A DNA stretch of 35,288 nt, taken from assembly GCA_019746735.1 (NCBI GenBank), contig JAIERT010000144.1, positions 1 to 35,288 of the forward strand. Reading direction: 5' to 3'. The notes under the pieces were generated by a model. It ran no database searches, was not told the origin of the DNA, and worked only from the letters and a program-made list of their open reading frames with translations. Positions 6,256 to 32,703 of the stretch are shown one piece after another (within the stretch, counting starts at the first letter, position 1; each line of letters opens with the position of its first letter). Source of the stretch: Burkholderiaceae bacterium (lineage in GTDB: Bacteria; Pseudomonadota; Gammaproteobacteria; Burkholderiales; Burkholderiaceae_C). Both the position numbers and the translations under genes were made by a program.

Positions 6256-6691
6256 ACATTTCGAACTGGCCGAGTTTCTGGTCTCAGAAACGGCGGCTCG
6301 CCGTGGCATTGCCAACGAGCCCACACCCGAGGTCATCGAGAACTTGCGTCGGCTGTGTCAGTCGGTGCTGCAGCCGCTGCGCGTGCACCTCAAACGGCCG
6401 GTGGTGATCATCTCCGGCTACCGCTCGCCAGCGCTGAACCGCGCGATCGGCGGCAGCCCGACCAGCCACCACATGCAAGGGCGTGCGGCTGACCTCATCG
6501 TGCCAGGTATGACGCCGTTGCTCGTGTGCCAAGCCGCCCACCAGTTGAAGCTGCCCTGCGTGCAGATCATTCACGAGTTCGGACGGTGGACCCATCTGGC
6601 AGTGGCGATCTCGAATGAGCGCACCCAGTTGCTCACGGCCAAGCTGAACCAGGGCAAGACCGTCTATGAAACGGGGTTGGTCCATGTCTGA
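6242..6691 (+). CDS. Peptidase M15 family D-Ala-D-Ala carboxypeptidase/endolysin-like protein
   Basis: IISGYRSPALNRAIGGSPTSHHMQGRAADLIV ... GRWTHLAV: SxHxxGxAxD and terminal WxH zinc motifs. Confidence 0.85.
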   Translation: MQLSEHFELAEFLVSETAARRGIANEPTPEVIENLRRLCQSVLQPLRVHLKRPVVIISGYRSPALNRAIGGSPTSHHMQGRAADLIVPGMTPLLVCQAAHQLKLPCVQIIHEFGRWTHLAVAISNERTQLLTAKLNQGKTVYETGLVHV

Positions 6692-7946
6692 ACCCTGGCT
6701 CTCTACCCATATTGAGCGCTGGCCCACCGAGAAACTCGTGCCCTACGCCCGCAATGCCCGTACCCACTCCGAAGAGCAGGTGGCGCAGATCGCGGCCTCC
6801 ATCGTCGAGTTCGGGTTCACCAATCCGATCCTGGCGGGGTCTGATGGCGTGATCGTCGCCGGTCATGGACGGCTGGCCGCTGCGCAAAAGCTCGGTCTGG
6901 ATACCGTGCCGGTGGTCGTCCTCGATCATCTGACACCCACCCAGCGCCGCGCGCTGATCATTGCGGACAACCGCATTGCAGAAAACGCCGGCTGGGACGA
7001 CGCCATGCTGCGCATCGAGTTGCAGTCGCTGCAGGAAGATGGATTCAATCTCGACATCACCGGCTTCGATGCCGACGCGCTGGCCGAGATCATGGCGGGC
7101 GAAGAGACCACGGTCGATGGCAATACAGATGAGGATGCCATTCCAGAACTGAGCGAAACAGCCATCAGCCGACCCGGTGACGTGTGGATTCTTGGCAATC
7201 ACCGGCTGGTTTGCGGTGATGCTACGCAGCCATTCAGCTACGAGCAGTTGCTCGCCGGGCAACGCGTTCAGATGATCTGGAGCGACTTGCCCTACAACGT
7301 CAACTATGCCAATAGCGCGAAAGACAAATTGCGTGGTAAGCACCGACCTATCCTGAATGACAACTTGGGCGAGGGTTTTTATGACTTCGTCTTCGATGCG
7401 CTCTCGCTGATGTTGCCCCACTGCGATGGCGCGGTCTACATTGCGATGTCCTCCAGCGAACTTGACACGCTACAAGCCGCGTTTCGCGCGGCCGGTGGAA
7501 AGTGGTCTACGTTCATCATTTGGGCCAAGCACACCTTCACCCTGGGCAGAGCGGATTACCAGCGTCAATACGAACCGATCCTGTATGGCTGGCCGGAAGG
7601 CAGCAGTCGGCATTGGTGTGGCGATCGCGATCAAGGTGACGTCTGGAATATCAAGAAACCTGCCCGCAACGATCTTCATCCCACGATGAAACCTGTCGAG
7701 TTGATGGAACGTTCAATCCGCAATTCGAGCCGACCAGGCGATGTGGTCCTCGATTGCTTTGGCGGATCCGGCAGCACGCTGATCGCCGCTGAGAAATCGG
7801 GGCGCCGCTGCTTCATGATGGAGTTGGAGCCGAAGTACTGCGATGTCATTGTTCGCCGTTGGCAGGAATTCAGTGGTGGCAAGGCTATCTCTGAATACAG
7901 CCAACGCGTCTTCGACGAGGTCACAATCCAGGAGGCTCCGGCGTGA
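6666..7946 (+). CDS. ParB-like domain / N4/N6 DNA methyltransferase fusion (DLPY variant)
   Basis: N-domain LVPYARNARTHSEEQVAQIAASIVEFGFTNPILAGSDGVIVAGHGRLAAAQ paralogous to the 4831 gene; motif IV-like SDLPYNVNY; motif I VLDCFGGSGSTLIAAEKSGRRCFMMELEPKYCD. Confidence 0.9.
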   Translation: MKRGWSMSEPWLSTHIERWPTEKLVPYARNARTHSEEQVAQIAASIVEFGFTNPILAGSDGVIVAGHGRLAAAQKLGLDTVPVVVLDHLTPTQRRALIIADNRIAENAGWDDAMLRIELQSLQEDGFNLDITGFDADALAEIMAGEETTVDGNTDEDAIPELSETAISRPGDVWILGNHRLVCGDATQPFSYEQLLAGQRVQMIWSDLPYNVNYANSAKDKLRGKHRPILNDNLGEGFYDFVFDALSLMLPHCDGAVYIAMSSSELDTLQAAFRAAGGKWSTFIIWAKHTFTLGRADYQRQYEPILYGWPEGSSRHWCGDRDQGDVWNIKKPARNDLHPTMKPVELMERSIRNSSRPGDVVLDCFGGSGSTLIAAEKSGRRCFMMELEPKYCDVIVRRWQEFSGGKAISEYSQRVFDEVTIQEAPA

Positions 7947-9885: not shown

Positions 9886-9924
9886 GTATGAACGCGCTGT
9901 TCAATCGGAAAGCCAAGCTATTTC
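9886..9924 (-). repeat. Intergenic promoter-like repeat, copy C
   Basis: Minus strand GAAATAGCTTGGCTTTCCGATTGAACAGCGCGTTCATAC. Confidence 0.85.
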
Positions 9925-9972
9925 ATGGATCACGTTGGGGTGGCGTGGATATGCCGCCACCCCATCTCGAAT

Positions 9973-10521
9973 TCAACCGACCCGGTAGATACGCTCGCCT
10001 CCCTCGGGCTTCTCCGAGGTGATGGTGAGCCCTAGTTTCTTCTTGAACGCCCCGGCGAAGGTGCCGCGCACCGTGTGCGCCAGCCAGCCGGTGGCCGCGC
10101 AGATCTGGTTGATGGTGGCTCCCTCCGGGCGCTGCAGCATCTGGATCACGGCGGCCTGCTTGCTGTTTTCGCGGGTGCGGGGCTTCCCCTCGACGCCGAC
10201 CTTGAGCAGTCGCTTGGCCGCGTCCTGCTTTTCTTGTGCCCAGTTGGCCTCGGCGGCCGCGACGGCGGCCTCGACCTCGGGGTCGGGGTGGATGGTGGCC
10301 GGCGTCGGCCGGGCGCGCCCCAAGGCGTCGTAGCCCTCGGCGGCGACGAACCAGTCGGTGCTGTCGCGGGTAATCAGTGCCCTGTTGAACAAGCCCTCCA
10401 GCACCTTGGTGCGGGCACCGCCCTTGATGTTGTCGGGGAACCATTCGATCTTGCCGCCGGTGTGTTCGATGGCGTAGGCGAGGATGGCGTGCTGGGCCGG
10501 GGTCAGTTGGATGGTGGTCAT
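9973..10521 (-). CDS. DUF3489 family protein (HTH-like C-terminal domain)
   Basis: MTTIQLTPAQHAILAYAIEHTGGKIEWFPDNIKGGARTKVLEGLFNRALI...RENSKQAAVIQMLQRPEGATINQICAATGWLAHTVRGTFAGAFKKKLGLTITSEK; SD AAGGAGCATCAA. Confidence 0.8.
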   Translation of the reverse strand: MTTIQLTPAQHAILAYAIEHTGGKIEWFPDNIKGGARTKVLEGLFNRALITRDSTDWFVAAEGYDALGRARPTPATIHPDPEVEAAVAAAEANWAQEKQDAAKRLLKVGVEGKPRTRENSKQAAVIQMLQRPEGATINQICAATGWLAHTVRGTFAGAFKKKLGLTITSEKPEGGERIYRVG

Positions 10522-10553
10522 TTGATGCTCCTTCGTGGTGGTTGATGGTGTGG

Positions 10554-10592
10554 TCATGAACGCGCTGTTCGAGAGTGAAGCCAAGCGCTTTC
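10554..10592 (-). repeat. Intergenic promoter-like repeat, copy B
   Basis: Minus strand GAAAGCGCTTGGCTTCACTCTCGAACAGCGCGTTCATGA. Confidence 0.85.
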
Positions 10593-10602
10593 CGCTTCTT
10601 TT

Positions 10603-18339: not shown

Positions 18340-18998
18340 AGCTCATAGCGGCACTTGCTGGCAATCTGGATCAGATGCTGGCCGATGAAGTGCGCATAGC
18401 CGAGCAGGCGGTCACGCATTCCATCCGTGAAGCCACCGATGGCCTCAAGACCGAGCTGCGCAGCCAGATCACCGGTGCGGGTCTGGGCCAGCGCCTGGCC
18501 AACACCTGGCGCGGTGAGGTCTACCCCAAGGGTCAGATTAGCATCAAGGCGGCAGGCCTGGTCTATAGCCGGGCACCCGTCATCGTCGGCGCACATGACC
18601 AGGGGGCCACCATCCGTTCCAAGGATGGGTTCTGGCTGGCGATTCCGCTGCCGGCTGCCGGCAAAGGCCCACGCGGCAAACGCATGACCCCCGGTCTTTG
18701 GGAAAAGCTGCGTGGCCAGCGCCTGCGTTTCATCTACCGCCGGGGCAAACCGTCGCTGCTCGTCGCAGAAAACCAGCGCGCCCGCCAAGGCCAACGCGGC
18801 GGTTTCTCGGCCGCTTCACAAAAGGCCCAAGCCACCGGCCGAGGACTGGTCACGGTGCCCATGTTCCTGCTCGTGCCGCAAGTGACCCTGAAGAAGAAAT
18901 TCGACATCGACCGCAGCGCGCGTCGCTGGATCAGCACACTGGCCCAGCGCATTGCCAAACGTTTCGATGAAGCCGACCGCAAAGGGGCAACGTCATGA
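18336..18998 (+). CDS. DUF6441-like tail-completion protein
   Basis: LKTELRSQITGAGLGQRLANTWRGEVYPKGQISIKAAGLVYSRAPVIVGAHDQGATIRSKDGFWLAIPL. Confidence 0.65.
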   Translation: MKLIAALAGNLDQMLADEVRIAEQAVTHSIREATDGLKTELRSQITGAGLGQRLANTWRGEVYPKGQISIKAAGLVYSRAPVIVGAHDQGATIRSKDGFWLAIPLPAAGKGPRGKRMTPGLWEKLRGQRLRFIYRRGKPSLLVAENQRARQGQRGGFSAASQKAQATGRGLVTVPMFLLVPQVTLKKKFDIDRSARRWISTLAQRIAKRFDEADRKGATS

Positions 18999-19426
18999 GC
19001 CAAAGAGAGAACGCCATCGGCGCTTTGTTCGCCGTGCTCGGCCAGTTGTCACTGGGTACGATGGTCAAACGCAACGCCGCCTTGCCCGAACGTATCGCGG
19101 ACCACGCCATGGCGATCCTGCGCGACGGCGAGATGGGCGAGCCCGAGGTATCGCTCTCGCCACTGACTTACCACTGGCAGCACCAGGTGGCCATCGAGCT
19201 GTTTGTGGCCGATCCGGATGCCGCTGTGCGTGATGCACGCATGGACGGTCTGCTCACCGAGCTCGCCACCCTGATCGAAGCCGATCGGACGCTCGCCGGT
19301 GTCGTCGAGTACGCCGAAATCGGTCAACCGAAGTTCGATGAACTGGCCCCCGAAGGCACAAGCGGCATCAAGGCCTGCCTACTGCCCGTGGTCCTGCACT
19401 ACAGCAGTGCCGGACCGCTTTCCTGA
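18995..19426 (+). CDS. Tail terminator-like protein
   Basis: Position between tail completion and tail tube genes; ALPERIADHAMAILRDGEMGEPEVSLSPLTYHWQHQVAIELF. Confidence 0.55.
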   Translation: MSQRENAIGALFAVLGQLSLGTMVKRNAALPERIADHAMAILRDGEMGEPEVSLSPLTYHWQHQVAIELFVADPDAAVRDARMDGLLTELATLIEADRTLAGVVEYAEIGQPKFDELAPEGTSGIKACLLPVVLHYSSAGPLS

Positions 19427-19450
19427 AATCACATCCAAAAGGAGTTCTGT

Positions 19451-20389
19451 ATGGCCCGTGCCTACGGCGCGAACGCCAGCCTCTTGGCCACGTTCGAATC
19501 CACCTATGGCAGCACCCCGGTAGATGGCTACTGGCAGCTGCCCTTTGTATCTACCTCACTCGGCTCCGAACAGGGCCTGATCGCCAACGATCTGATTGGC
19601 CTCGGGCGCGACCCGAGTGCGCCGATCCGTGACGTGATCAAGGTCGAAGGCGACATGGTCGTTCCGCTGGACGTGCGCCATATCGGCCTGTGGCTCAAGG
19701 CCTTGTTGGGCGAGCCCACCTCGGTGGGCACGGGCGTGGTGACCCACACTTTTGCTTCCGGCAAGCCGAGCCTGCCCAGCCTCACCCTGGAAACGGGTCT
19801 GCCGGATATCCCGGCCTGGTTCGTGGCTTCCGGCGTCATGGTCAACAGCCTGCAGGTGGGCTTTGCCCGCTCGGGAGCCGCGAACGCCACGGTGGGTCTG
19901 GTGGCCCAAGGCGAGGTGCGGCGCACGGCCACGCTGGACGCCACCCCGAGCACTCTGGACTTGCAGCGCTTCAACCAGTTTCAAGGCCAAATCCTGCGCG
20001 AAGGCCAGGCGCTGGGCAATGTGGTATCGGCGCAGCTGACCTATGCCAACAACCTGGAACGCATCGAGACCATCCGCTCCGACGGCAAGATCGACGGGGC
20101 TGATCCCACGGTGGCGAGCCTCACCGGCAATCTGGAAGTGCGCTTTGCCGACACCACGCTGATCGATGCCGCCACGAACAACACCCCGTTGGAATTGACC
20201 TTTGGCTACGCGATCGATGCCGATCACCGCCTGACCTTCATCGCCCACGAGGTCTATCTGCCCAAGCCCAAGCTGTCCATCTCGGGCCCCGGCGGCATCC
20301 AGGCCACCTTCGAATGGCAAGCCGCCAAGGCCACCAGCGTGGCCCGCATGTTCACCGTCGAGCTGGCGAACGACGTCTCTTCCTACTGA
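19451..20389 (+). CDS. Phage tail tube protein
   Basis: MARAYGANASLLATFESTYGSTPVDGYWQLPFVSTSLGSEQGLIANDLIGLGRDPSAPIRDVIKVEGDMVVPLD. Confidence 0.85.
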   Translation: MARAYGANASLLATFESTYGSTPVDGYWQLPFVSTSLGSEQGLIANDLIGLGRDPSAPIRDVIKVEGDMVVPLDVRHIGLWLKALLGEPTSVGTGVVTHTFASGKPSLPSLTLETGLPDIPAWFVASGVMVNSLQVGFARSGAANATVGLVAQGEVRRTATLDATPSTLDLQRFNQFQGQILREGQALGNVVSAQLTYANNLERIETIRSDGKIDGADPTVASLTGNLEVRFADTTLIDAATNNTPLELTFGYAIDADHRLTFIAHEVYLPKPKLSISGPGGIQATFEWQAAKATSVARMFTVELANDVSSY

Positions 20390-20409
20390 TCACCCGACCG
20401 AGGTTTCTC

Positions 20410-20760
20410 ATGATCAAACTCAATCTCCCGCGTGAGCCGCACTGGATCACGCTGGCCGCCGGCGTGCGCCTGCAGGTCCGCCCCGCCACCACGGCGCTGG
20501 TCATGGCCGCGCGCCATGCCGCCTCCAAAGTTTCCGGCACCGATACCGCTGCGGCCGGTGAGCGTACCGCCACGCTGATCACCGAACTGGCCAAGCTGGC
20601 TGTGCTGGCTTGGGAAGGTGTGGCCGACGACAAGGGCAAACCCGCTGCTGTTACGCCTGAGGGTGTGGCAGCGCTGATGGAGCACTGGCTCCTGGCCGAT
20701 GCCTTCGAACGCGAATACCTCGCCGGCCTTTACGCGCTGGACTCCGAAAAAAACGCCTGA
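20410..20760 (+). CDS. Tail assembly chaperone, short form (lambda G-like)
   Basis: MIKLNLPREPHWITLAAGVRLQVRPATTALVMAARHAAS...; between tail tube and tape measure; terminates just after slippery A7C. Confidence 0.8.
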   Translation: MIKLNLPREPHWITLAAGVRLQVRPATTALVMAARHAASKVSGTDTAAAGERTATLITELAKLAVLAWEGVADDKGKPAAVTPEGVAALMEHWLLADAFEREYLAGLYALDSEKNA

Positions 20761-21071
20761 AGGCCCGCACCGCGTGGCACTTCGGTGGCGGGCCGAGCTA
20801 TTGCAGCGCCTGTCTTCAAAGCTGCCCCGAACCGTGCCCCGAGTGCCCCTACACCATGAACGCGCCCGAGAGCCTGGAAGGCTGGCAAGCCGCCAGTGCG
20901 ATTGACATCTGTGCCAGCCAATTGCGCATGGCGCAGGGCCGCGTGGTGGGGCTCGACCTCAATGCCTGGATGCTGGCTTGCGAGTGCACGGGGCTCGATC
21001 GCGCGACGGCAATCGATCTCTTTCCAGCAGTCGAGGCGGGCCTGATGAGCACATTGCAACAAGACACTTAG
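20410..21071 (+). CDS. Tail assembly chaperone, -1 frameshift product (lambda GT-like)
   Basis: join(20410..20754,20754..21071); slippery A AAA AAC at 20748-20754; -1 frame is open to 21071 (...SEKN-RLKARTAWHFGGGPSYCSACLQSCPEPCPECPYTMNAPESLEGW...). Confidence 0.85.
20748..20794 (+). promoter_or_regulatory. Programmed -1 ribosomal frameshift signal
   Basis: A AAA AAC 20748-20754, 7-nt spacer, hairpin GGCCCGCACC (20762-20771)/GGTGGCGGGCC (20784-20794, one bulged G). Confidence 0.85.
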
Positions 21072-21107
21072 ACCCACGATTCACCCGATATCGGATTTCT
21101 TCTTCCC

Positions 21108-23726
21108 ATGGCCGAACGCAACCTCTCCATCCGCCTGTCCGTGGTCGACGGCGGCAAGGTCAAAGCCGAACTGTCCGAGATCGGTGAGAAGGGGGAGCGC
21201 TCGCTCAAAAAAATCGAGGCGGCGGCCACGCCAGCGTCTGGGGGCCTGAAACTGCTGTCGTCTGCCGCCAACGACGCCAAGTTCCAATTGCAGGCCGCCA
21301 CCGATCGGCTCGGCGTGCTTGGATCGGTCCTGGGCAAACTCGGCCCCGCCGGTCTGATGGCCGGCGCCAGTATCGCCGCCTTGGGTGTGGGCATCACTGC
21401 CCTGGTCATGCCCGTGGCCCGTGTGGGCGATGAGTTCTTCAAGCTCTCGCAAAAGACCGGCGTCTCGGTTGAAGCGCTCACCGCGCTCGACTATGCCGCC
21501 AAGCTCTCGGACGTCAGCACTGAAGGACTGACCAAGGGGCTGCAGCGCCTGTCTGTCGCGTTGTTTGACAGCCGCTTCGAGGGTGCCGAAGGCAGCAAGG
21601 CCTTGCTAGCGCTGGGTGTAGCGGCTACCGACGCCCATGGGCAGATCCGGCCAACCGAGCAGGTCTTGCTCGATCTGGCCGAGAAGTTCGCCGATATGCC
21701 CGACGGCGCGGACAAGGCGGCCTTGGCCATCAAGCTCTTTGGCCGCGAAGGGCTCAACCTGATCCCCTTCCTCAACCAGGGGCGAGAGGGCATTACCGCG
21801 CTGATGGAAGAAGCGCAGCGCCTGGGCCTGGTGATGTCCGAAGACGTGGCACGCGCCTCGGAAGTCTTCAACGACAACCTGACTCGCTTATCGGCCATCT
21901 TTGAAGGCGTGCAGCGCCAGATCGGCGCGGCCGTCATTCCGGTGCTGGCCGACTTCACCGAGCAAGTGATCCTGGCGCAGACAGAGACGGGCAGCTTCAG
22001 CAATGAGCTGCAGCGCATCACGTCCAACCGGGAGGCCACGCTGGCCTTTCTGGAATCCGTCGCCTCGGGCCTGGCCTTCATCGCCGAGTCGTCGGTGCTC
22101 TTGAAGCGCGTGATTGCCCAACCGTTTGACAGCCTGTCGGTGGTCGGCAAGGACATCGAGACCTGGTTCAAGACCGAACTGCTGACCTTCTACAAGAACT
22201 ATGGGTTCGATGCACAGGCCATCGATGCCGAAATCGCCAAACTGCAAACGGCACGTGACGACTATGTGCGTGCCGCCAATGACCGGCTATTCAACATCAA
22301 CCAGAACCCGGGCTATACCGATCGCGTGGCCCGCTTCTTTGACGAGCAGCGCCGCACGGTGCGCGTCATGGGCCAGCGGTTCGTGCTCGACACCGAAGCG
22401 CAGGCCCGGGAAGTTCAGGCCATCTACGACCGCTTCCTGCCGACCGTGCCCCGTACGCCCGCCAATCTGGATCTGAGCGCCTTTGCCAGGCCGACTGCTT
22501 CCGCCAAGCCCGATGAGGGCGAAGCCTTCCTCAACCAGCTGCGCACCCGGCTCCTGCGCACCCAGGAGGGCGAAGCGGCCGAGTTGCGTGCGCGTGCCTT
22601 GCAGATCGAGGCCAAGGGCTACCAGGGGGTGGCGGCGCAAGCCGAGCAGTACATCCAGGTGCTCGAAGCCATTGAGCGGCAGAAAGCCGCCAACCAGGCC
22701 TTCGATGCTTACGAAAAAGAAGAAGCGGCCGCCCGCAAGATCACCGAAGGGCTGATCGGCGGCAACCGTCAGCGCATCGAGGCCTTGCAGCTGCAGCGCG
22801 AAATGCTGGATCTGTCGGCGAGCGAACGTGCCGTCCTGCAAGCCCGCACCGAATTAGAAAAGTCTGCGACTGCCGCGCGCAAGGAGGCCAGTCAGATCCA
22901 GGACGCCGATCTGCGTGCCCAGACCATCGAGGCCATCAACGACGCCCTGGCGCGTCAGCTACCCATTGTGGAGAACCTCATTCGGGCCAACGCCGAGTAC
23001 CAGCGTAGCACCGAGTTCGGGGCCAAGGCGGCCTTGCGCACCTATATTGAGGACGCCATCAACGCCGCCAAGCAGGCCGAACGCGCCGTGACGGGCGCCT
23101 TCAAATCCATGGAGGACGCGCTCACCCAGTTTGTGATGACCGGCAAGCTGGACTTCAACAGCTTGGCCAACTCCATCATCAGTGACCTCATCCGCATCCA
23201 GATCCAGCGCGCCATCACCTTGCCGTTGGCGAACTTTGCGATGAGCCTGTTTGCGCCGGCGGCCAGTGCCGCGTTGCCTCTGGGCTCCGGTGACCTGATG
23301 GGCGTGAACGCCAATATCGCGCACAGCGGGGGTCTCTTGGGTGCCGATGGCCTGCCATCGCGTCAGGTGAGTGCCACCCTGTTTTCCGGTGCGCGTCGTT
23401 TCCACACCGGCGGTTTGGTCTCGGGCGAAGTGCCGATCATCGCCCGACAGGGGGAGGCGGTGTTCACGCCGGGGCAATTGAGGGCACTGGGTGGGGCCGT
23501 CGCCACCAAACCCCAGGTGAATGTGGAAGTGAATGTGATCAACCGCGCCAGCGGGGTGGAAACCCACGTCGAGCAGCAACAGCAGCCCGATGGAAGCACG
23601 CGGCTCGATGTGATCGTCGAACAGATGGAAGCGCGCATGGCCCGGTCGATCTCCCAAGGTTCCGGCTTGGCGCCGACGCTGGAGCGTCGCTACGGACTCA
23701 ATCCTGCAGCCGGAGCCATGCGATGA
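21108..23726 (+). CDS. Tail tape measure protein
   Basis: 872 aa; ASIAALGVGITALVMPVARVGDEFFKLSQKTGVSVEALTALDYAAKLSDVSTEGLTKGLQRLS; long coiled-coil; C-terminal FHTGGLVSGEVPIIARQGEAVFTPGQLRALGG. Confidence 0.95.
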   Translation: MAERNLSIRLSVVDGGKVKAELSEIGEKGERSLKKIEAAATPASGGLKLLSSAANDAKFQLQAATDRLGVLGSVLGKLGPAGLMAGASIAALGVGITALVMPVARVGDEFFKLSQKTGVSVEALTALDYAAKLSDVSTEGLTKGLQRLSVALFDSRFEGAEGSKALLALGVAATDAHGQIRPTEQVLLDLAEKFADMPDGADKAALAIKLFGREGLNLIPFLNQGREGITALMEEAQRLGLVMSEDVARASEVFNDNLTRLSAIFEGVQRQIGAAVIPVLADFTEQVILAQTETGSFSNELQRITSNREATLAFLESVASGLAFIAESSVLLKRVIAQPFDSLSVVGKDIETWFKTELLTFYKNYGFDAQAIDAEIAKLQTARDDYVRAANDRLFNINQNPGYTDRVARFFDEQRRTVRVMGQRFVLDTEAQAREVQAIYDRFLPTVPRTPANLDLSAFARPTASAKPDEGEAFLNQLRTRLLRTQEGEAAELRARALQIEAKGYQGVAAQAEQYIQVLEAIERQKAANQAFDAYEKEEAAARKITEGLIGGNRQRIEALQLQREMLDLSASERAVLQARTELEKSATAARKEASQIQDADLRAQTIEAINDALARQLPIVENLIRANAEYQRSTEFGAKAALRTYIEDAINAAKQAERAVTGAFKSMEDALTQFVMTGKLDFNSLANSIISDLIRIQIQRAITLPLANFAMSLFAPAASAALPLGSGDLMGVNANIAHSGGLLGADGLPSRQVSATLFSGARRFHTGGLVSGEVPIIARQGEAVFTPGQLRALGGAVATKPQVNVEVNVINRASGVETHVEQQQQPDGSTRLDVIVEQMEARMARSISQGSGLAPTLERRYGLNPAAGAMR

Positions 23727-23736
23727 GGAGGTGTGG

Positions 23737-24216
23737 ATGAACATCACCTGGCCCAACACGCTGCCGCTGCCCTTGGTCGAAGGCTATGGCCTCACGCCGC
23801 AAGAGGCTGTGCTGCGCACCGACATGGAATCGGGCCCTGCCCGCCAGCGTCGCCGGTTCCGGCAAACGCCCACGCGCATCACCGTGCGCTGGCTGTTTAG
23901 CGAGTTTGAGTTTGCCCTGTTCGAGGCTTGGTACAAGTACCACGCCGATGAGGGCGGGCAGTGGTTCGAAATCACTTTGCTTGGCGGCCTGGGCCTTTTG
24001 CCCCACGAAGCCCGTTTCACCCGCCAGTTCGAAGCCCAGTTGCGTTCGGCCCGGCGCTGGGACGTCAAGGGCGAGCTGGAGATCCGCGAGCGGCCCACGC
24101 TCGACGAGGGCGCGCTCAACCTGATGCTGGAGCTCTCCGCTGATGACCTCTTTGCCATGGGCAGCGAGCTGCACCAACTGGTGCATGGCACCTTGCCAGT
24201 TCGGTGGCCGGCCTAG
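23737..24216 (+). CDS. Minor tail protein (gpM-like)
   Basis: SD GAGGAG 6 nt upstream; TRITVRWLFSEFEFALFEAWYKYHADEGGQWFEITL; follows tape measure. Confidence 0.7.
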   Translation: MNITWPNTLPLPLVEGYGLTPQEAVLRTDMESGPARQRRRFRQTPTRITVRWLFSEFEFALFEAWYKYHADEGGQWFEITLLGGLGLLPHEARFTRQFEAQLRSARRWDVKGELEIRERPTLDEGALNLMLELSADDLFAMGSELHQLVHGTLPVRWPA

Positions 24217-24260
24217 CAATTCCTGATTCATCCATTCATCGCATACACGGAACCCCTTCT

Positions 24261-24899
24261 ATGAGTCTGCAAACCGATCTGCATCAAGCGGTCGCGCAGG
24301 TCACGGCCGACAGTGCCTTGTTGCACACCATCGTGCACGGCACCGCCGCGCAGACCGTGACCACCGAGGGTGGTGCGGTCGCCACCGTGGCCAAGCTGCT
24401 GGCGGACGCCGATGCCCGCATCAACCTGGCCGCTGACGGCCTGCTGGCCCAGAGCCAGGCCGCCGCGCAAGACGCGCTCACCTCGGCCGAACTCGCCGCC
24501 ACCGAAGCCGACCGCGCCCAAGCCTCGGCCGACCAGGGCGTGGCGGACACCACTGCCGTGCTCAACCAGGTGCAGTCCAGCGGCAACCAGATCCTGGTGG
24601 ACGCTGAAGCCGTGCTGCAGCAGGTCATCGCCCGGCTGCTCGCAGTGGGACTGCCGGACTCCTTGATCGGCGCACGCGGGATGCTGCTGAAGGTCAAGGT
24701 CGATGAATCCGGCTACGAGCTGGTCCACACCGCGGCTTTACCTCGCTTCTATGGTTTCGCGCTTTCCAGCGACGGATCTGAACTGCTGGTGACGGAGGGA
24801 CGAGATGCCAACTTCAATGCGCAAGACTTCCTGGCTTGGACTCTGGCCGAAGGGGTGACCTTTGCCCTCCATCAAAACGCCCTGGAGGTGCAACTGTGA
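24261..24899 (+). CDS. Tail fibre-like protein (Ala-rich coiled coil stalk)
   Basis: AQSQAAAQDALTSAELAATEADRAQASADQGVADTTAVLNQVQSSGNQILVDAEAVLQ. Confidence 0.6.
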   Translation: MSLQTDLHQAVAQVTADSALLHTIVHGTAAQTVTTEGGAVATVAKLLADADARINLAADGLLAQSQAAAQDALTSAELAATEADRAQASADQGVADTTAVLNQVQSSGNQILVDAEAVLQQVIARLLAVGLPDSLIGARGMLLKVKVDESGYELVHTAALPRFYGFALSSDGSELLVTEGRDANFNAQDFLAWTLAEGVTFALHQNALEVQL

Positions 24900-26572
24900 A
24901 CCTGGATATATCGGTGCTGGGCTACCGCTGGTGCGGCCTCTACTCGCCCTACCTGAGCTATCGAGATGGAGATGTGGTCTTCAAGGAAGGCGGCGCCTGG
25001 GTGATGCGCCACGGCCAGCCGCAGCCCTTTGCGCTGGGCCAGCAGGACGCAACCCTCAAAGGCCACTTGCTCACCGGCGGGGTGTCGGTGGGTGGCATCG
25101 GCAGCATGGTGCTCCACGCGAATGGCGCCAATGGGGTGGATGGTGTGGAATTCCGCTTCATGGCCGATCGCAACGGCACGGTGGCCACGGCGCTGATGAA
25201 CACCGACCGTGCGGCGGCCGACTACCACAGCGCCAACTTCTTCATGGCTGCGCTCATGAACGACGGCTCGGTGCGTGCCTGGGGCCGGGCGCTCACCGGC
25301 CAGCAGGGCACCGGCAACACCGGTGACATCAGCCGTACCTTCCCGGCGCGGGTGGCATTTCCACCGGGTACGCCTCGCATCATGTCCATCATCTGCATGT
25401 GGGACGAGACCTTCTTCATCGATGCCAGTGGCGGCTTGTGGCACGCCGGGGCCAACAGCGACGGGGGTTCGCCCACGGCCACCGCCAATCCGGTGCCTCG
25501 ACGCGTCAATGGGGTGGGCCAGTTGCCGGCCGATGCCGTGGTCAAGCGGGTCTTCACTGGGCACGACTGGTACGGCTATCGCATGTTCGCTTGCCTGGAT
25601 GACGCCGGCCGCGTCTATGTCTGGGGCAACAACCGCTATGGCAGCCTCGGGCTGGGGCACAGCACCACCGTCTCCACGCCCACGCTCGTGCCGTTCACGC
25701 TCGACACCCCGATCCGCGAGGTCTTTCTGTCGGGCGGCTTTCATGCCGCGAGCTACCTGGTGGACACCCTGGGCCGATTGTGGGTGGCCGGAGAAGCCAA
25801 CGCCTGTGGCTTTGGCAGCGACCAATCTGTCCACCGCCTGCTCATGCCATGGGGCAGCGACAAGCGCGTCAAAAAAGTCTTCTGCTCCGAGTCCGACGGG
25901 CATTGGGTGGCGGGCGCCCAGTACTACCGCGCCTACGGCGTGGTGCTCGAAGACGGATCGCTCTACCGCTGGGGGCATGACAGCGGTCAGGTCGGCGGCA
26001 GCTGGGGCACGGGTTTCACCGGCGATATCTGGACCGGTCACGCGCTGTTTCCATACAAGGTGCTCGACGGCGTGACCGACGCCTACGCCATCTCCGGCGG
26101 TTATGGCAGGACGCTGGCGCTCATGCAAGACGGCACGGTGCGCCACACCGGGTACAACGGCTACAGCATCGGCGGCGGCAGTGACCGCACCACCTGGGCC
26201 ACCATCGGCGGCGACGTCCTGACCCAAGTCACCAAGCTGCGCCTGTACGGCAGCAGCTATGGGTCGTCTGCCATGGCACTCCGATCTGACGGCAAGGCGG
26301 TGGGCTGGGGCATGGGGGCAACGGGGCAGTGCGGCCACGGGTATGCCGACACGTCCAACGCCCCCTCTCGCTTCGTGCTCATCGACCGACCCATCGTCGA
26401 CTTCTCCCGCTCCGGGTCTATGGGCTGCAGCGAGGGTGGCGAGTACCACAACGGCGCCTACCACTTCCTCACCGTCGATGGTCAGGTGATGAGCACTGGC
26501 AACGGCAGCTATGCACAAACGGGCGATGACGACCAAGACCACCGCTACGCGCCATCGCCCATCCTGTTCTGA
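24896..26572 (+). CDS. RCC1-repeat beta-propeller tail protein 1
   Basis: GTG start overlaps upstream stop; repeats GSVRAWGRALTGQQGTGNT, GRVYVWGNNRYGSLGLGHSTTVSTPTLV, GSLYRWGHDSG, GKAVGWGMGATGQCGHGYADTSNAPSRFV. Confidence 0.8.
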   Translation: MNLDISVLGYRWCGLYSPYLSYRDGDVVFKEGGAWVMRHGQPQPFALGQQDATLKGHLLTGGVSVGGIGSMVLHANGANGVDGVEFRFMADRNGTVATALMNTDRAAADYHSANFFMAALMNDGSVRAWGRALTGQQGTGNTGDISRTFPARVAFPPGTPRIMSIICMWDETFFIDASGGLWHAGANSDGGSPTATANPVPRRVNGVGQLPADAVVKRVFTGHDWYGYRMFACLDDAGRVYVWGNNRYGSLGLGHSTTVSTPTLVPFTLDTPIREVFLSGGFHAASYLVDTLGRLWVAGEANACGFGSDQSVHRLLMPWGSDKRVKKVFCSESDGHWVAGAQYYRAYGVVLEDGSLYRWGHDSGQVGGSWGTGFTGDIWTGHALFPYKVLDGVTDAYAISGGYGRTLALMQDGTVRHTGYNGYSIGGGSDRTTWATIGGDVLTQVTKLRLYGSSYGSSAMALRSDGKAVGWGMGATGQCGHGYADTSNAPSRFVLIDRPIVDFSRSGSMGCSEGGEYHNGAYHFLTVDGQVMSTGNGSYAQTGDDDQDHRYAPSPILF

Positions 26573-26611
26573 ATCCCACCGATTTCAATCTCCACTCTTC
26601 AAGGACTGTTC

Positions 26612-28258
26612 ATGGGAACTGTTTCTCTGGGCAAGATTGCCTTTACCTGGCGCGGCGCATACGACGCCAGCGCCACCTACGCCCGCCAGGACGTGGTCGG
26701 CCACCACGGCGACAGCTTTGTGTGTCTCGCGGACGCCACCACAGGCGTGGCGCCGCACGCCAATTCCCCAGCTTGGGATCTGTTTGCCCAGGGCACGCAA
26801 GGGGTCTCGAACCTGCCGGGCGAGGTCATCTACTTCGATGGCAACCAGCTGGTCGCCTTGCCCGCAGGTCAATCCGGGCAGGTGCTCACCATCGGCGCGC
26901 AGGGTGTGCCGGTCTGGGCAACGCCTGATGTGCGTTCGGGCACCAAGGCACTCAAATTGCCAGAGAACGCCAGCAACACGCAACCGAACAGCTACCGCCA
27001 GTTCGGTCTCGTCATGACCGACGGCAGCATCCGTGCCTGGGGGCGCAACGCCAACTTCAAGCTGGGGGACGGCACCACCTTCGCGCGTTCCTACCCGGCA
27101 CGCACAGCGTTTCCGCCGGGGTTTCCGGGGGCGGACAAGCTTTATTACAGCCACGATACCAACGGCTACTGCATCGACAAGAACGGCCAGCTCTGGGGTT
27201 GGGGGTTCAATGGCTATGGTCAGCTCGGTACCGGCAACACGGCCAATCAGCCGGTGCCGTACAACATGAGCGCCAATGCCAGCAACTCGATCGCCGGCAA
27301 AACCGTGGTGCAGCTGGCACAAAACTGTGGCGTCGAGGGGTTCAACAGCACCCTGGTGCTGTGCAGCGATGGCACGGTCCACGCCTGCGGCTATAACGCC
27401 CATGGCCAGCTGGGCTTGGGTGATGTGACCCAGCGCAACAACTTCGTGCAGTTGCCGGTGCTCTCAGGCATCACCCAGATCGCTGCCGGGCGTGAGCGCT
27501 ATACGGCTTACTACGCCGTCAAGAACGACGGCACCCTGTATTCTTGGGGTTACAACGCCAACGGCCAGCTGGGCGACGGCACCACCAATCAGGCCAACGT
27601 CGCCATGCCGCGTGCGGGCGGCAGCCTCGCCGGCAAAACCCTCGTCAAGGTCTTCGGCGGCTATGTCCATGCGTTTGCACTGGACAGCACCGGTGCCTTG
27701 CATGCCTGGGGCACCAACGACTACGGGCAACTGGGCAATGGGAATCTTGCCAACCAGTTCACCCCGGTGCAGGTAGCCACCAACGTGGCCGATGTTTACG
27801 CGGGTAGCTACGACTACCCGCTCACCTTTCTCAAAAAAACCGACAAGACCCTGTGGGCCTGCGGAGCCGGGGCCTATTGGGGCAACGCCAATGGCAGCAA
27901 CAGCGGCAACTTCGTGCAAGTGCCGGTAGGCAATACCGTGGTCAAAGCCGTACACGGCGGCACCGGTTCCTACAACTATGGCGCCGCCTTGCTGGAAAAC
28001 GGCACCGTTTACGCCTGGGGTTACAACGGCAACGGAGCACTCGGACTGGGCGACGCCACCAACCGCAGCAGTGTGGAACTGGTGCGCATTGCGCAGCGTC
28101 GTGTGGTGGACCTCTCGTCCTACGGGTCGAGCTCCGAGCAAGGCTTGGTGTTTCTGCTCGACGATGGTCAGGTGCTGGCCAGCGGCTATGCCGGAGAAGC
28201 GCAGTTACCCGAGGACGATAGCGAAACGAGCTACGTGCCTTACCCCGTCATCCTCTGA
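26612..28258 (+). CDS. RCC1-repeat beta-propeller tail protein 2 with carbohydrate-binding-like N-terminus
   Basis: N-term FTWRGAYDASATYARQDVVGHHGDSFVCLADATTGVAP...W (CBM5/12-like); GQLWGWGFNGYGQLGTGNTANQPVPYNM, GTLYSWGYNANGQLGDGTTNQANV, GALHAWGTNDYGQLGNGNLANQFTPVQV, GTVYAWGYNGNGALGLGDATNRSSVELV. Confidence 0.9.
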   Translation: MGTVSLGKIAFTWRGAYDASATYARQDVVGHHGDSFVCLADATTGVAPHANSPAWDLFAQGTQGVSNLPGEVIYFDGNQLVALPAGQSGQVLTIGAQGVPVWATPDVRSGTKALKLPENASNTQPNSYRQFGLVMTDGSIRAWGRNANFKLGDGTTFARSYPARTAFPPGFPGADKLYYSHDTNGYCIDKNGQLWGWGFNGYGQLGTGNTANQPVPYNMSANASNSIAGKTVVQLAQNCGVEGFNSTLVLCSDGTVHACGYNAHGQLGLGDVTQRNNFVQLPVLSGITQIAAGRERYTAYYAVKNDGTLYSWGYNANGQLGDGTTNQANVAMPRAGGSLAGKTLVKVFGGYVHAFALDSTGALHAWGTNDYGQLGNGNLANQFTPVQVATNVADVYAGSYDYPLTFLKKTDKTLWACGAGAYWGNANGSNSGNFVQVPVGNTVVKAVHGGTGSYNYGAALLENGTVYAWGYNGNGALGLGDATNRSSVELVRIAQRRVVDLSSYGSSSEQGLVFLLDDGQVLASGYAGEAQLPEDDSETSYVPYPVIL

Positions 28259-28271
28259 GCGGTGATCTCTG

Positions 28272-28814
28272 ATGCCCAACGCTGCTTTATCAGAAGCCAT
28301 CAAAGAGGCCTACGCCAGCGCCCCGTCGCAGCAGATCATCCTGCACACCCTGGAGTTGCGCCACCCTGCCTTTGTCGATGAGGCTGGTCAGCCGGTCGCC
28401 ATCCGCGTGGTGCGCGACACAGGTGATCTGTGGGCTCGGCTGGAATCTCAAGCCCCGCTGCAAGCCGGCGAGCGTGTGCAGTTCGTGGCGATGGGCTTTG
28501 AGCTGGATTTGCCGCCTGTCGACACCATGCCCGTGCCAGAAATCACTGTGACACTCGACAACGTGTCGCGCGAGATCGTGCGCCACCTGGATGCGGCCGC
28601 CGAGTCGCAGTCGGTGATCGAGGTGACTTACCGGCCGTATCTGTCCACTGATTTGGAAGGCCCGCAGATGGACCCACCCATCCACCTGGTACTCACGGAA
28701 GTGGAGGCGGACGTCTTTCGGGTGACCGGCCGTGCCCGCATGCTGGATGTAGGCAACAAGGCCTTCCCCGGCATCAGCTACACCGCCAAGACCTTCCCGG
28801 GCTTGACCCGATGA
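28272..28814 (+). CDS. DUF1833 family tail protein (gpL-position)
   Basis: LHTLELRHPAFVDEAGQPVAIRVVRDTGDLWARLE...ITVTLDNVSREIVRHLDAAAESQSVIEVTYRPYLSTDLEGPQMDPP. Confidence 0.8.
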   Translation: MPNAALSEAIKEAYASAPSQQIILHTLELRHPAFVDEAGQPVAIRVVRDTGDLWARLESQAPLQAGERVQFVAMGFELDLPPVDTMPVPEITVTLDNVSREIVRHLDAAAESQSVIEVTYRPYLSTDLEGPQMDPPIHLVLTEVEADVFRVTGRARMLDVGNKAFPGISYTAKTFPGLTR

Positions 28815-29227
28815 GCCTGACACCCCATTGGGCGGCCGAGTACATCGGGCTGCCCTGGTACGCCGGTGCGCGTGGGCCGGATGCGTTCGATTGCTGGGGC
28901 CTGTTCCTCGCCATCCAGCGCGAGCACTTTGGCCGAGACCTGCCCGAAATCCCGGTGGACGCCAATGACCTGCGCACCGTGATGACCACCTTCCGCGACC
29001 ATCCCGAGCGGCAACGCTGGGCAGTGGTGGCGCAACCCGCCGAAGGAGATGCCGTGCTGCTGCGCCAGTCCCGCCACCCGGTGCATGTCGGCGTGTGGCT
29101 GGCGGTCGATGGCGGTGGCGTGCTTCACGCGGTCAAGGACGCCGGTGTCGTGTTCCAGAAGCTGCCCGAACTCCTGCTGCACGGCTGGCGGGTCGAGGGC
29201 TATTACCGATTTGTGGAGAGCACGTGA
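28811..29227 (+). CDS. NlpC/P60 (C40) peptidase tail protein (gpK-like)
   Basis: ARGPDAFDCWGLFLAIQREHFG (catalytic Cys) ... HPVHVGVWLAVDGGGVLHAV (His). Confidence 0.85.
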   Translation: MSLTPHWAAEYIGLPWYAGARGPDAFDCWGLFLAIQREHFGRDLPEIPVDANDLRTVMTTFRDHPERQRWAVVAQPAEGDAVLLRQSRHPVHVGVWLAVDGGGVLHAVKDAGVVFQKLPELLLHGWRVEGYYRFVEST

Positions 29228-31536
29228 TTCACGCCGAGCAAAGCGCTGTCGTACTTTTACGCAACCCCTTCCAGCCCAGTCAGCGCGAGGTGATGGTGGC
29301 CCACCCCACCCAGACCATCCGCCAGTGGCTCGGTGCCCAGGGCATTGCCGAATTCGATCAGCCCACCGTCTGCATCAAGAACGGCGCGCCCGTGTTGCGT
29401 GCCGATTGGGCAGTCACACCGATCGATGGCGTGGTGCTCTTCATCACCCTGCCGCAGGGCGGGGGAGGTGGTGGCGGTGGCAAGAACCCGCTGCGCACCG
29501 TTCTCATGATCGCGGTGATGGTGGTGGCCACCGTTTATGGCGGCCCCTTGGGCGCGAGCCTGGGATTCAGCGGCAACCTGGCCACAGCGGTCGGTTCGGC
29601 CATCATCATGACGGCAGGCTCTGCTCTGGTCAGTGCGCTGGTGCCGCTGCCCACGCCCAACATGCCGTCCTTTGCGGGGTCGGGCGGGAGCCTGGCGCAG
29701 CCATCGCCCACCTACAGCCTGCAAGGCCAGGGCAACTATGCGCGGTTGGCCCAACCCATCCCGGTCGTCTACGGTCGCCATCTGGTCTATCCCAACCTGG
29801 CCGCCACCCCCTATGGCGAATACCAAGGGAATGAACAGTTCCTGCATCAACTGCATTGCATCGGCTTGGGCGAATACGACATCGAGCAGATCCGCATCGA
29901 GGACACGCCCATCGCCTCTTTCGAGGAAGTGACCTACCAGATCGTGCCACCCGGCAATCCGGTCACGCTCTTCAACCCGGATGTGGTGACTGCCCCCGAG
30001 GTCGCCGGGCAAGAACTGCTGGCTGGCACCTGGACCGGGGGCTTTGCCATCAACCCTGCTGACAGTGAAGTCACCCATATCGGTATCGACATCCTGCTGC
30101 CGCGTGGTTTGTATTACGCCAATGACGCCGGCGGCCTGGACAGCCGCAGTGCCAGCTGGAAGGTCGAAGCCCGGGCCATCGATGCCGAGGGCGATCCACT
30201 GAACGACTGGTTCACGCTGGGCAGTGAGAGTCTGACCGCTGCCACCACCACGCCACAGCGGCGCACCTACCTTTATCCCGTCGCTGCAGGGCGATACGAA
30301 GTGCGTGCCACGCGGCTCGATGGAAAAGACTCCAACTCACGTGCCGGGCACGAAGTTCGCTGGGGCGAGGCCCGGGGCTATCTGGCCGGCGGCGTCACTT
30401 TCCCTGACAACGTCACGCTTCTCGCCATCCGCATGCGCGCCACCGACAACCTGTCGCAGCGCTCCAGCCGGCTCATCAACTGCATCGTCACGCGCAAGCT
30501 GCCGGTCTGGTCGGCAGACTCTGGCTGGTCCTCTGCCGAGTCCACCCGCTCGATTGCCTGGGCCTTTGCCGACATCCTGCGCGCGAGCTACGGCGCCAAG
30601 TTGCCGGATGCGCGGATCGATCTGGCTGCTTTGGCGCAACTCGATCAGGTTTGGGCTAGTCGAGGCGATCGGTTCGATGGTGTCTTTGACCAGCAGGTCA
30701 CCGTCTGGGAGGCGCTGACCCGGGTCGCCCGCTGTGGCCGGGCGGTGCCTTTCCTGCAAGGCGGCATCGTGCGTCTGGTGCGTGACGAAGCCCGGCTACT
30801 GCCCGTGGCGCTCTTCAGTCCGCGCAACATCGTCAAGAACAGCCTCAAGATCCAGTACGTGATGCCGGGCGAAGAGACGGCAGACGCGGTGACGGTGGAG
30901 TTCTTCAGCAGCCGCACCTGGAAGCCCGATGAAGTGACGGTGAGCCTGCCGGGCTCCAGCAGCACCAATCCGGCCAAGCTGCGGCTCTTTGGTTGCACCA
31001 CCGAAGCCCATGCGGTGCGCGAGGGACTGTATCTGGCGGCGGCCAACCGCTACCGCCGGCGCATCATCACCCTGCGCACCGAGCTCGAAGGGCTGATCCC
31101 CACGTACGGCGACCTGATCGCCATTGCCCATGACATGCCCAGTTGGGGCGCGGGCGGCGAAATCGTTGCCTGGGACGCCGACACCCACACTGCCACGCTG
31201 TCCGAGCCTATCCAATTCACGGATGGTCAGCCGCACACACCACACGTGATGGCATTGCGCCGCCGCGATGGCGGGGTCAGCGGCCCGCATGCGGTGACAC
31301 CTGGAAGTGATGCGCAGCAGGTGGTCTTTGCCGACCTGCCCGACATCCCCATCGAAACCGGCCTGTCGGCCGAGCGCACCCATTTTGCGTTTGGCATCGC
31401 CGAGCAATGGAGCTTGCTGGCCCGGGTGATCGCGGTGCGCCCGCGTGGCGAGCAGGTGGAAATCACCTGTGTGGCCGAGCACCCGGCAGTGCATAGCGCC
31501 GATGGCAGTGTCGACAGCAGCACCGCCCCAATCTGA
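29224..31536 (+). CDS. Host specificity/central tail tip protein (TipJ/gpJ-like)
   Basis: GTG start overlapping upstream stop; LPQGGGGGGGGKNPLRTVLMIAVMV hydrophobic segment; NYARLAQPIPVVYGRHLVYPNLAATPYGEYQGNEQFLHQLHCIGLGEYDIEQIRIEDTPI. Confidence 0.9.
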   Translation: MIHAEQSAVVLLRNPFQPSQREVMVAHPTQTIRQWLGAQGIAEFDQPTVCIKNGAPVLRADWAVTPIDGVVLFITLPQGGGGGGGGKNPLRTVLMIAVMVVATVYGGPLGASLGFSGNLATAVGSAIIMTAGSALVSALVPLPTPNMPSFAGSGGSLAQPSPTYSLQGQGNYARLAQPIPVVYGRHLVYPNLAATPYGEYQGNEQFLHQLHCIGLGEYDIEQIRIEDTPIASFEEVTYQIVPPGNPVTLFNPDVVTAPEVAGQELLAGTWTGGFAINPADSEVTHIGIDILLPRGLYYANDAGGLDSRSASWKVEARAIDAEGDPLNDWFTLGSESLTAATTTPQRRTYLYPVAAGRYEVRATRLDGKDSNSRAGHEVRWGEARGYLAGGVTFPDNVTLLAIRMRATDNLSQRSSRLINCIVTRKLPVWSADSGWSSAESTRSIAWAFADILRASYGAKLPDARIDLAALAQLDQVWASRGDRFDGVFDQQVTVWEALTRVARCGRAVPFLQGGIVRLVRDEARLLPVALFSPRNIVKNSLKIQYVMPGEETADAVTVEFFSSRTWKPDEVTVSLPGSSSTNPAKLRLFGCTTEAHAVREGLYLAAANRYRRRIITLRTELEGLIPTYGDLIAIAHDMPSWGAGGEIVAWDADTHTATLSEPIQFTDGQPHTPHVMALRRRDGGVSGPHAVTPGSDAQQVVFADLPDIPIETGLSAERTHFAFGIAEQWSLLARVIAVRPRGEQVEITCVAEHPAVHSADGSVDSSTAPI

Positions 31537-31547
31537 AAGGAAAGAAG

Positions 31548-31838
31548 ATGAACGAACCCCACCTGATGGATGGCATGGTGGTCATGCCCCATGACGAATT
31601 TGAAACCCTGCTGGAACGCGCCGCCGAGCGTGGGGCGCGTCACGCCTTGTCCGATGTCGGCCTGGATGGCCCGGATGCCGCAAACGACATCCGCGAGCTC
31701 AGGAATCTGCTCGACGCTTTCAACGAGGCCAAGAAAACCGCCGGTCTCACGCTGGTCAAGATGCTGGTCACGGGTCTCGTGCTTGCCTTGCTCGCCGGCA
31801 CCATCGTCAAAATCAAACTGTTCGGAGGCCCGCAATGA
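31548..31838 (+). CDS. DUF6127-like membrane protein
   Basis: SD AAAGGAAAGAAG; MVVMPHDEFETLLERAAERGARHALSDVGLDGPDAANDIRELRNLLDAFNEAKKTAGLTLVKMLVTGLVLALLAGTIVKIKLFGG. Confidence 0.75.
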   Translation: MNEPHLMDGMVVMPHDEFETLLERAAERGARHALSDVGLDGPDAANDIRELRNLLDAFNEAKKTAGLTLVKMLVTGLVLALLAGTIVKIKLFGGPQ

Positions 31839-32263
31839 GCCCAATCTTCACCACCTTGGCCCCCGGCCTCTTTGAAGCCGGGGCCAAACTGATCGATCGC
31901 CTGATTCCCGATCCGGCCCAACGCGAGCAGGCCAAGCTCGCCTTGTTTCAGGCCGAGGGGCAACAAGCCCTGCAGGAAATGCAGGTGAGCCTCTCGGCCA
32001 TTCTGGCCGAAGCCAATTCGGCCGACCCGTGGACCAGCCGGGCGCGCCCGACCTTTCTGTACGTGATCTACGGCGTGATCCTGCTGTCGGTGATCGGCAG
32101 CATCATCGGCATTTGGTGGCCCGCCGAGGTCTTCCAGGCCGCCGAAAACCTGTCCAAGCTGCTCAACGCGGTGCCCGAGAGCTTGTGGTGGCTCTTCGGT
32201 GCCGGCTACCTCGGTTACACCGGCGCGCGAAGCTTCGACAAGTGGCGCGGTGTGCCCAGGTAG
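31835..32263 (+). CDS. 3TM-type holin (GTA holin family)
   Basis: LIDRLIPDPAQREQAKLALFQAEGQQALQEMQVSLSAILAEANSADPWTSRARPTFLYVIYGVILLSVIGSIIGIWWP. Confidence 0.85.
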   Translation: MSPIFTTLAPGLFEAGAKLIDRLIPDPAQREQAKLALFQAEGQQALQEMQVSLSAILAEANSADPWTSRARPTFLYVIYGVILLSVIGSIIGIWWPAEVFQAAENLSKLLNAVPESLWWLFGAGYLGYTGARSFDKWRGVPR

Positions 32264-32305
32264 GCAACACCAGCGGCTGCAGCAAACGCAACAGCAGTAA
32301 ACCAT

Positions 32306-32360
32306 AGACCCCGTCTTCATTGGCTTCCCTCTGGGGAGGCTGGTGAAGGCGGGGTCTTTT
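32306..32360. terminator. Strong intrinsic terminator (likely end of phage late operon)
   Basis: AGACCCCGTCTTCA...TGAAGGCGGGGTCT stem with inner GCTTCCC/GGGAGGC stem, followed by TTTT; mirrored A-run is weaker on the other strand. Confidence 0.85.
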
Positions 32361-32398
32361 GTCGTTTGTGCGAACCAGCCAGCATCTACCAGTAAACA

Positions 32399-32427
32399 TT
32401 GTCGGTAAGCAATGAGGAAGGTATAAT
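32399..32427 (+). promoter_or_regulatory. Sigma70 promoter for galE operon
   Basis: TTGTCG (32399-32404), 17-bp spacer, perfect TATAAT (32422-32427), in a local AT-rich patch. Confidence 0.65.
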
Positions 32428-32488
32428 TGTCATAATAATTTTGAAGCAACGGCAGGGTGTTTGTGGCCTTTAGGGAGGCTGCGATGTA

Positions 32489-32503
32489 CCCCCCCCCCCC
32501 CCC
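32489..32503. repeat. Homopolymeric C15 tract followed by palindrome CCCGAATTCGGG
   Basis: GATGTA-C(15)-GAATTCGGG in the galE 5' leader. Confidence 0.95.
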
Positions 32504-32571
32504 GAATTCGGGCGCCTCAGATGGCTGTCTGGGCGTTGCGAGCGGGGGTTTTCACAGGTGGAGGCGGGTTG

Positions 32572-32703
32572 ATGAATCAACTCAAAAAGGTAGCAACTGG
32601 CAAAGATTTAGCGTGCTTGGCAGGTAAATACTCTGGTTCCGATGCGAACACACGGAGTGCGGTAGCCATGCTATTGGATGCCCAGGTCGGAGGGCACGCA
32701 TGA
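32572..32703 (+). CDS. Candidate 43-aa ORF translationally coupled to galE
   Basis: ATG with upstream [59 protein letters not shown] overlap with galE start. Confidence 0.4.

Follow-up and report, generated by a model that had tools for sequence, protein, structure and literature searches.

The window analysed here, contig JAIERT010000144.1 at its full length of 35,288 bases, belongs to a metagenome-assembled Burkholderiaceae genome and holds most of a siphophage prophage, including primase, terminase, portal, head protease, major head protein, tail genes and holin. Its tail operon, on the forward (+) strand, reads tape measure (21108), gpM-like (23731), fibre (24261), RCC1A (24896), RCC1B (26612), DUF1833 (28272), NlpC/P60 (28811), gpJ-like (~29224) and holin, and it is the fibre and the two tandem RCC1-repeat genes that concern us here. 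The fibre, referred to below as the adaptor (24261..24899, 212 aa), combines an alanine-rich, probably coiled-coil N-terminal part with a conserved C-terminal module of ~88 aa (24633..24896) and matches the tail fibre family phrog_4549 weakly. RCC1A (24896..26572, 558 aa) starts at a GTG codon at 24896 that overlaps the fibre stop, and comprises an N-terminal module and an eight-unit RCC1 propeller (units 1–8, aa 114–558, 25235..26569). RCC1B (26612..28258, 548 aa) comprises an N-terminal module, a linker and a further eight-unit propeller (units 1–8, aa 128–548, 26993..28255).

Both proteins carry repeats of the RCC1/BLIP-II superfamily. The Pfam E-values are far beyond chance (PF25390 1e-40 and PF00415 9e-21 for RCC1A, which also matches PF13540; 2e-62 and 2e-46, respectively, for RCC1B), and PF00415 scores 74.7 and 157.1 bits against a curated cut-off of 21.7. 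The original prediction, made from the DNA letters alone, of a tandem RCC1 pair at 24896–28258 is borne out, with its coordinates exact and every unit motif that it listed present. Its count of eight units in the first protein also stands, while the seven units plus a terminal partial one counted in the second have to be revised to eight, because the seemingly partial last unit provides strands a-b-c of a blade whose strand d comes from the N-terminus. The predicted strands of RCC1B run d0, seven full a-b-c-d units, then a-b and a short final strand (d-[abcd]x7-abc), strand d of the last blade being predicted from aa 109–127; this is the order expected if the N-terminal strand shuts the last blade (velcro closure). 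Exactly eight units were found by the unit model in 56 of 59 RCC1A and 53 of 57 RCC1B homologues.

Structure prediction, a check suggested with the original prediction, yields a closed propeller of the RCC1 fold for both proteins in AlphaFold2 models built from 21–22 sequences. For RCC1A (predicted local distance difference test score, pLDDT, 72) the nearest PDB chains are those of UVR8 (Z 26); the RCC1B propeller, with a pLDDT mostly of ~90, matches UVR8 with Z 36 and a root-mean-square deviation of 3.7 over 356 residues, and BLIP-II with Z 19 and 27% identity. The N-terminal modules are poorly modelled (low pLDDT in most of RCC1B 1–110 and in RCC1A 47–93), and no claim is therefore based on their models. 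The best non-RCC1 matches include the WD40 propellers FBXW8, ODA16, TBLR1, Cdc4 and Rsa4, which are eight-bladed. These matches support the reading, derived from the unit counts, that the RCC1A and RCC1B rings are probably eight-bladed. The solved RCC1 structure has seven blades (Renault 1998, as cited in PMC8458387), and a designed protein with nine repeats folded into eight blades (PMC8458387), so that repeat number does not fix blade number.

The proposal that the two genes arose by tandem duplication is confirmed by unit alignment, RCC1A and RCC1B appearing as diverged paralogues since their units align best in register (score 332, whereas none of the seven other circular offsets exceeds 223) and since they have an N-terminal module in common. 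This module, which resembles a carbohydrate-binding module (CBM), had been assigned to the second protein only, but it starts RCC1A (aa 1–60, 24896..25075) as well as RCC1B (aa 1–62, 26612..26797): the two segments, LDISVLGYRWCGLYSPYLSYRDGDVV / VSLGKIAFTWRGAYDASATYARQDVV, align with a score of 45, where shuffles average 23 (sd 4.5) and 3 of 2000 score as high. Among 17 divergent representatives no other part of RCC1A is as well conserved as the module (58% mean identity versus 31–45% for the units), and in RCC1B it ranks, again at 58%, among the best conserved parts (units 42–58%). The RCC1B module recurs in numerous tail fibre proteins of phages (the tail fibre families phrog_9851 and phrog_5073), and tblastn finds it at 37–44% identity in Pelagibacter phage proteins and at 31–39% in cyanophage proteins, tail-fibre-like ones included. 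Being common to both proteins and the best conserved part of RCC1A, it looks more like an attachment part than a variable binder. Pfam gives no match to CBM family 5/12 (PF02839) in the window proteins; RCC1 relatives score 16.5–23.4 bits, under the cut-off of 26.2, and one adaptor relative (L217) lies above it at 31.1 bits.

The functional unit appears to consist of three genes, with the fibre at 24261–24899 included. With RCC1A as bait, 52 distinct loci with enough flank were collected in viral contigs, and 51 of them have the order fibre C-terminal module, RCC1A, RCC1B; in the sole exception (L014) the genes are present and RCC1A is frameshifted. In 15 of the 52 no homologue of the window major tail protein, tape-measure protein (TMP), gpM, DUF1833, NlpC or J was detectable. 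The N-terminal part of the fibre varies between phage backbones; the final ~88 residues, by contrast, stay conserved, at 40–55% identity across unrelated backbones (alignment A3). A reverse search with this module alone placed an RCC1 protein immediately downstream of it in 62 of 63 loci with enough downstream sequence, the remaining locus being a 35-residue match at E 3e-4; the scan was seeded with motifs of RCC1-linked fibres and may miss divergent modules without RCC1. We propose that the module is the docking site of the RCC1 pair, and it offers a simple handle for finding more candidate phage RCC1 receptor-binding proteins. The RCC1A gene of L091 (6001–8007) is a longer frame of 669 aa that overlaps RCC1B, and L014 is similar, a frameshift of the allele that may be real or a sequencing error.

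The same cassette is found on T7-like podophage tails. The T7 gp17 N-terminal anchor domain (PF03906) starts the adaptor in L206, L221 and L226 (E 2.7e-12 to 2.8e-36), the adaptor follows a T7-type internal virion protein in L206 and L221, and a large terminase lies downstream in L206. PF03906 was present in six of eight whole records searched, exactly once in each: the four metagenomic ones have a short fibre frame of ~300 aa, the two isolates a long fused one. In these podophages, then, the cassette occupies the gp17 slot and the RCC1 pair comes after a truncated fibre. In T7 gp17 the receptor is bound by the C-terminal part, and this distal part is what the docking module and the RCC1 pair replace. 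The window adaptor lacks PF03906, which was found only in the podophage relatives, and it is therefore not classed as gp17. The cultured Pseudomonas phages PollyC (gp12) and Ppr_SeaP1, both linked to phrog_4219, unite the anchor, a long alanine-rich region and RCC1 units in one protein of 867–900 aa at the gp17 position of a T7-like genome, with PF03906 just below cut-off on the whole protein (E ~1e-4); in the window, by contrast, the adaptor and the two propellers are three distinct proteins, belonging to the tail of a siphophage. Operon position, the fusion in the two isolates and the podophage adaptors together link the RCC1 genes physically to tail anchors.

Exchange of the pair is observed within a conserved tail. 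In a second prophage of Achromobacter pulmonis ANB-1 (L120, also seen as L106), TMP (window 21108..23726, PF09718), gpM, fibre and DUF1833 (28272..28814, PF08875 and phrog_396, the conserved right flank of the cassette) are 98, 98, 99 and 97% identical to the window, whereas RCC1A and RCC1B are at 51 and 50%. Nucleotide identity drops directly past the N-terminal module of RCC1A, itself kept at ~95% next to a replaced propeller, and rises again where RCC1B ends. Two metagenomic contigs (L036 and L037) independently repeat the right boundary, with DUF1833 at 94–96%, J at 88–89% and RCC1B at 60–61%, so that all three loci display exchange or divergence of the pair against a conserved backbone. 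In relatives with 74–87% identical DUF1833 the slot is occupied by a single RCC1 protein, a degenerate one, a collar-type fibre or an unrelated large protein. In two loci whose slot is without RCC1 genes, a 483-aa gene stands directly upstream of DUF1833 (L135:5502–6950 and L141:5543–6991), with radical SAM family matches in L135. L120 also carries ~700 extra bases between DUF1833 and NlpC (9900–10600), on the opposite strand within the tail operon and absent from the window, in which a small toxin-antitoxin-like pair (RelE/HigB-like) was recognized by eye; similar DNA occurs in L022, L034, L098, L105 and L116. A Tepidicella contig (L118:1–7482) has the stretch matching window ~23585–25884 inverted. 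An invertible switch was considered and rejected, the junction having only a few common bases and cutting the tape-measure gene; an assembly chimera is more likely.

Our results make it probable that genes 24261–28258 are a three-gene receptor-binding cassette of a temperate siphophage, whose propellers bind the receptor and whose specificity is changed by exchange or transfer. Comparative genomics gives good support to a propeller-type role in receptor binding: relatives carry the T7 gp17 anchor, fused forms occur in isolates, the pair is exchanged in a conserved background and the cassette has been transferred between unrelated tails. Gene order, architecture, anchor-domain identity, exchange and transfer are established by the sequences themselves. 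In the mechanism that we infer, the fibre would anchor at the tail tip through its backbone-specific N-terminus and its ~88-aa end module would hold both propeller proteins, each attached by its conserved CBM-like module. The eight-unit ring would be shown to the cell surface, where variable loops may bind; the likeliest receptor would be a surface glycan or an outer-membrane protein. Changes of host recognition would come chiefly from homologous exchange of the pair and, over longer periods, from movement of the cassette to other tails, those of T7-like podophages among them. The short gpJ-like tip protein (29224..31536) has no C-terminal receptor-binding extension: its phrog_31 (gpJ) match stops at column 849 of 1565 while covering the protein to residue 803 of 813 (in a longer open reading frame), and the missing long C-terminal part of the gpJ family fits a recognition role shifted to the cassette. 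Virion location of the window proteins is supported by analogy, mass spectrometry having detected three phrog_4219 RCC1 proteins in W70 virions (PMC11370258) and RCC1 proteins in GAP32 virions (PMC5259590). On balance we also favour, with less assurance, a broader view in which the adaptor module and two eight-bladed propellers form a self-contained unit spread by anchor swapping between gpJ siphophages, T7-like podophages and other unrelated tail types, the pair serving as a general plug-in head of variable specificity and the paralogues perhaps as a fixed hetero-pair.

Several observations weigh against a receptor-binding cassette. The window fibre has no Pfam match at E 0.1. The ANB-1 genome contains several near-identical prophages, with repeated pieces on some scaffolds, and an assembly join in L120 is possible. 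Near-identical alleles (~96–99%) occur in Achromobacter, Cupriavidus and other Burkholderiales, so that the allele is not narrowly host-specific. Within the close group, pairwise ratios of non-synonymous to synonymous substitution (dN/dS) of 0.08 for RCC1A and 0.04 for RCC1B indicate purifying selection, without a surplus of amino-acid change; the propellers show no positive selection, and the window–L120 values of 0.39–0.45 are accompanied by dS of ~1.0–1.2, near saturation. Recombination specific to the RCC1 genes was likewise rejected, as a PHI-style test was significant in all six genes tested.

The original prediction had coupled receptor binding to shuffling of blades, and only the first half fares well, on comparative genomics. 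The comparison of blade-level identity across relatives that it had suggested revealed a single exchange, of RCC1A unit 6 (L035 versus L096 and L102 versus L115, 76–78% against mostly 93–100% elsewhere), while the nearest neighbours of the other units mostly follow the general mosaic. Blade shuffling is therefore rejected as the main mode; it is possible and weakly supported by these alignments, and the main pattern appears to be exchange of the pair or the cassette.

The purifying selection, together with RCC1B identities of 90–99% within the genus-level group, would also suit structural or decorating tail proteins, for example stabilizers of the tip or shaft that bind no receptor, and published virion RCC1 proteins carry no assigned function. 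For such proteins, however, one would expect neither substitution for the distal part of the T7 gp17 fibre nor exchange as a pair beside tail genes that are 97–99% identical, and we regard this explanation as unlikely. Alternatively, the propellers may have enzymatic activity, as depolymerases or glycosidases that cleave capsule or lipopolysaccharide instead of simply binding it. The endosialidase tailspike of the T7-like phage K1F contains a beta-propeller and the CBM-like module suggests contact with polysaccharide, but the RCC1/BLIP-II family is known mainly for binding proteins, and no catalytic family was matched in Pfam and PHROG searches of the window proteins, which leaves an enzymatic role quite unlikely. 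BLIP-II is itself a secreted binder (PMC9218822). That RCC1 proteins organize phage or host DNA is suggested by the name-based label 'DNA, RNA and nucleotide metabolism' of phrog_4219, 7220 and 16766 and by the inner-body suggestion of the phAPEC6 authors (PMC7247149); against the location in the tail operon, the fusion to a T7 tail-fibre anchor and an N-terminal module common to tail fibres, it seems very improbable.

That PHROG label appears to need correction for the phage RCC1 families, phrog_4219 itself including T7 tail-fibre-anchor proteins and virion proteins. Phage RCC1 proteins are usually annotated as chromosome condensation or DNA metabolism, and on the evidence gathered here a large group would be receptor-binding proteins located at the tail tip. 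Databases already contain phage RCC1 propellers, some of them inside tail fibres. The window pair has the repeat family and fold of UVR8, the HERC RLDs, RCC1 and BLIP-II, but differs in its eight units compared with the seven of RCC1, in the additional CBM-like N-terminal module and in lacking any connection with Ran or chromatin. RCC1 proteins are also encoded by jumbo and Vequintavirinae phages (GAP32, phAPEC6 and W70), with virion detection in GAP32 and W70, but these phages are myophages whose RCC1 genes, more than one in several of them, lie in other contexts, and the triad of adaptor, RCC1A and RCC1B is not described there. A full-text literature search, with subscription papers and bioRxiv mostly outside its scope, turned up no account of this triad, of RCC1 propellers acting as phage receptor-binding proteins, of the transfer between tail types or of the eight-unit form. 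The cassette would provide a natural example of one recognition unit on several unrelated tails, and its role is testable in the isolated Pseudomonas phages. A much larger relative, a 1,627-aa protein composed mostly of RCC1 repeats, adjoins an annotated tail fibre gene in Clostridioides phage LIBA6276 (L238:2820–7703).

Likeness of the window to its relatives ends on the right at ~32,590, before a galE-like gene, and continues on the left past base 1. Prophages of ~92–94% DNA identity to window 18900–32600 (L109, L111, L108, L110 and L118) reside in Achromobacter pulmonis (Alcaligenaceae), Cupriavidus pauculus (Burkholderiaceae) and Tepidicella baoligensis (Burkholderiales incertae sedis), which suggests one phage species with an unusually broad host range. 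Shortly before the right end of the prophage, a run of C followed by GAATTC (32490–32512) may either have arisen as an artefact in assembly or cloning or be close to the attachment site. Adjacent genes at 4831–6255 and 6666–7946 both match phrog_498 (ParB-like/DNA-methyltransferase), apparently a second tandem duplication of the phage.

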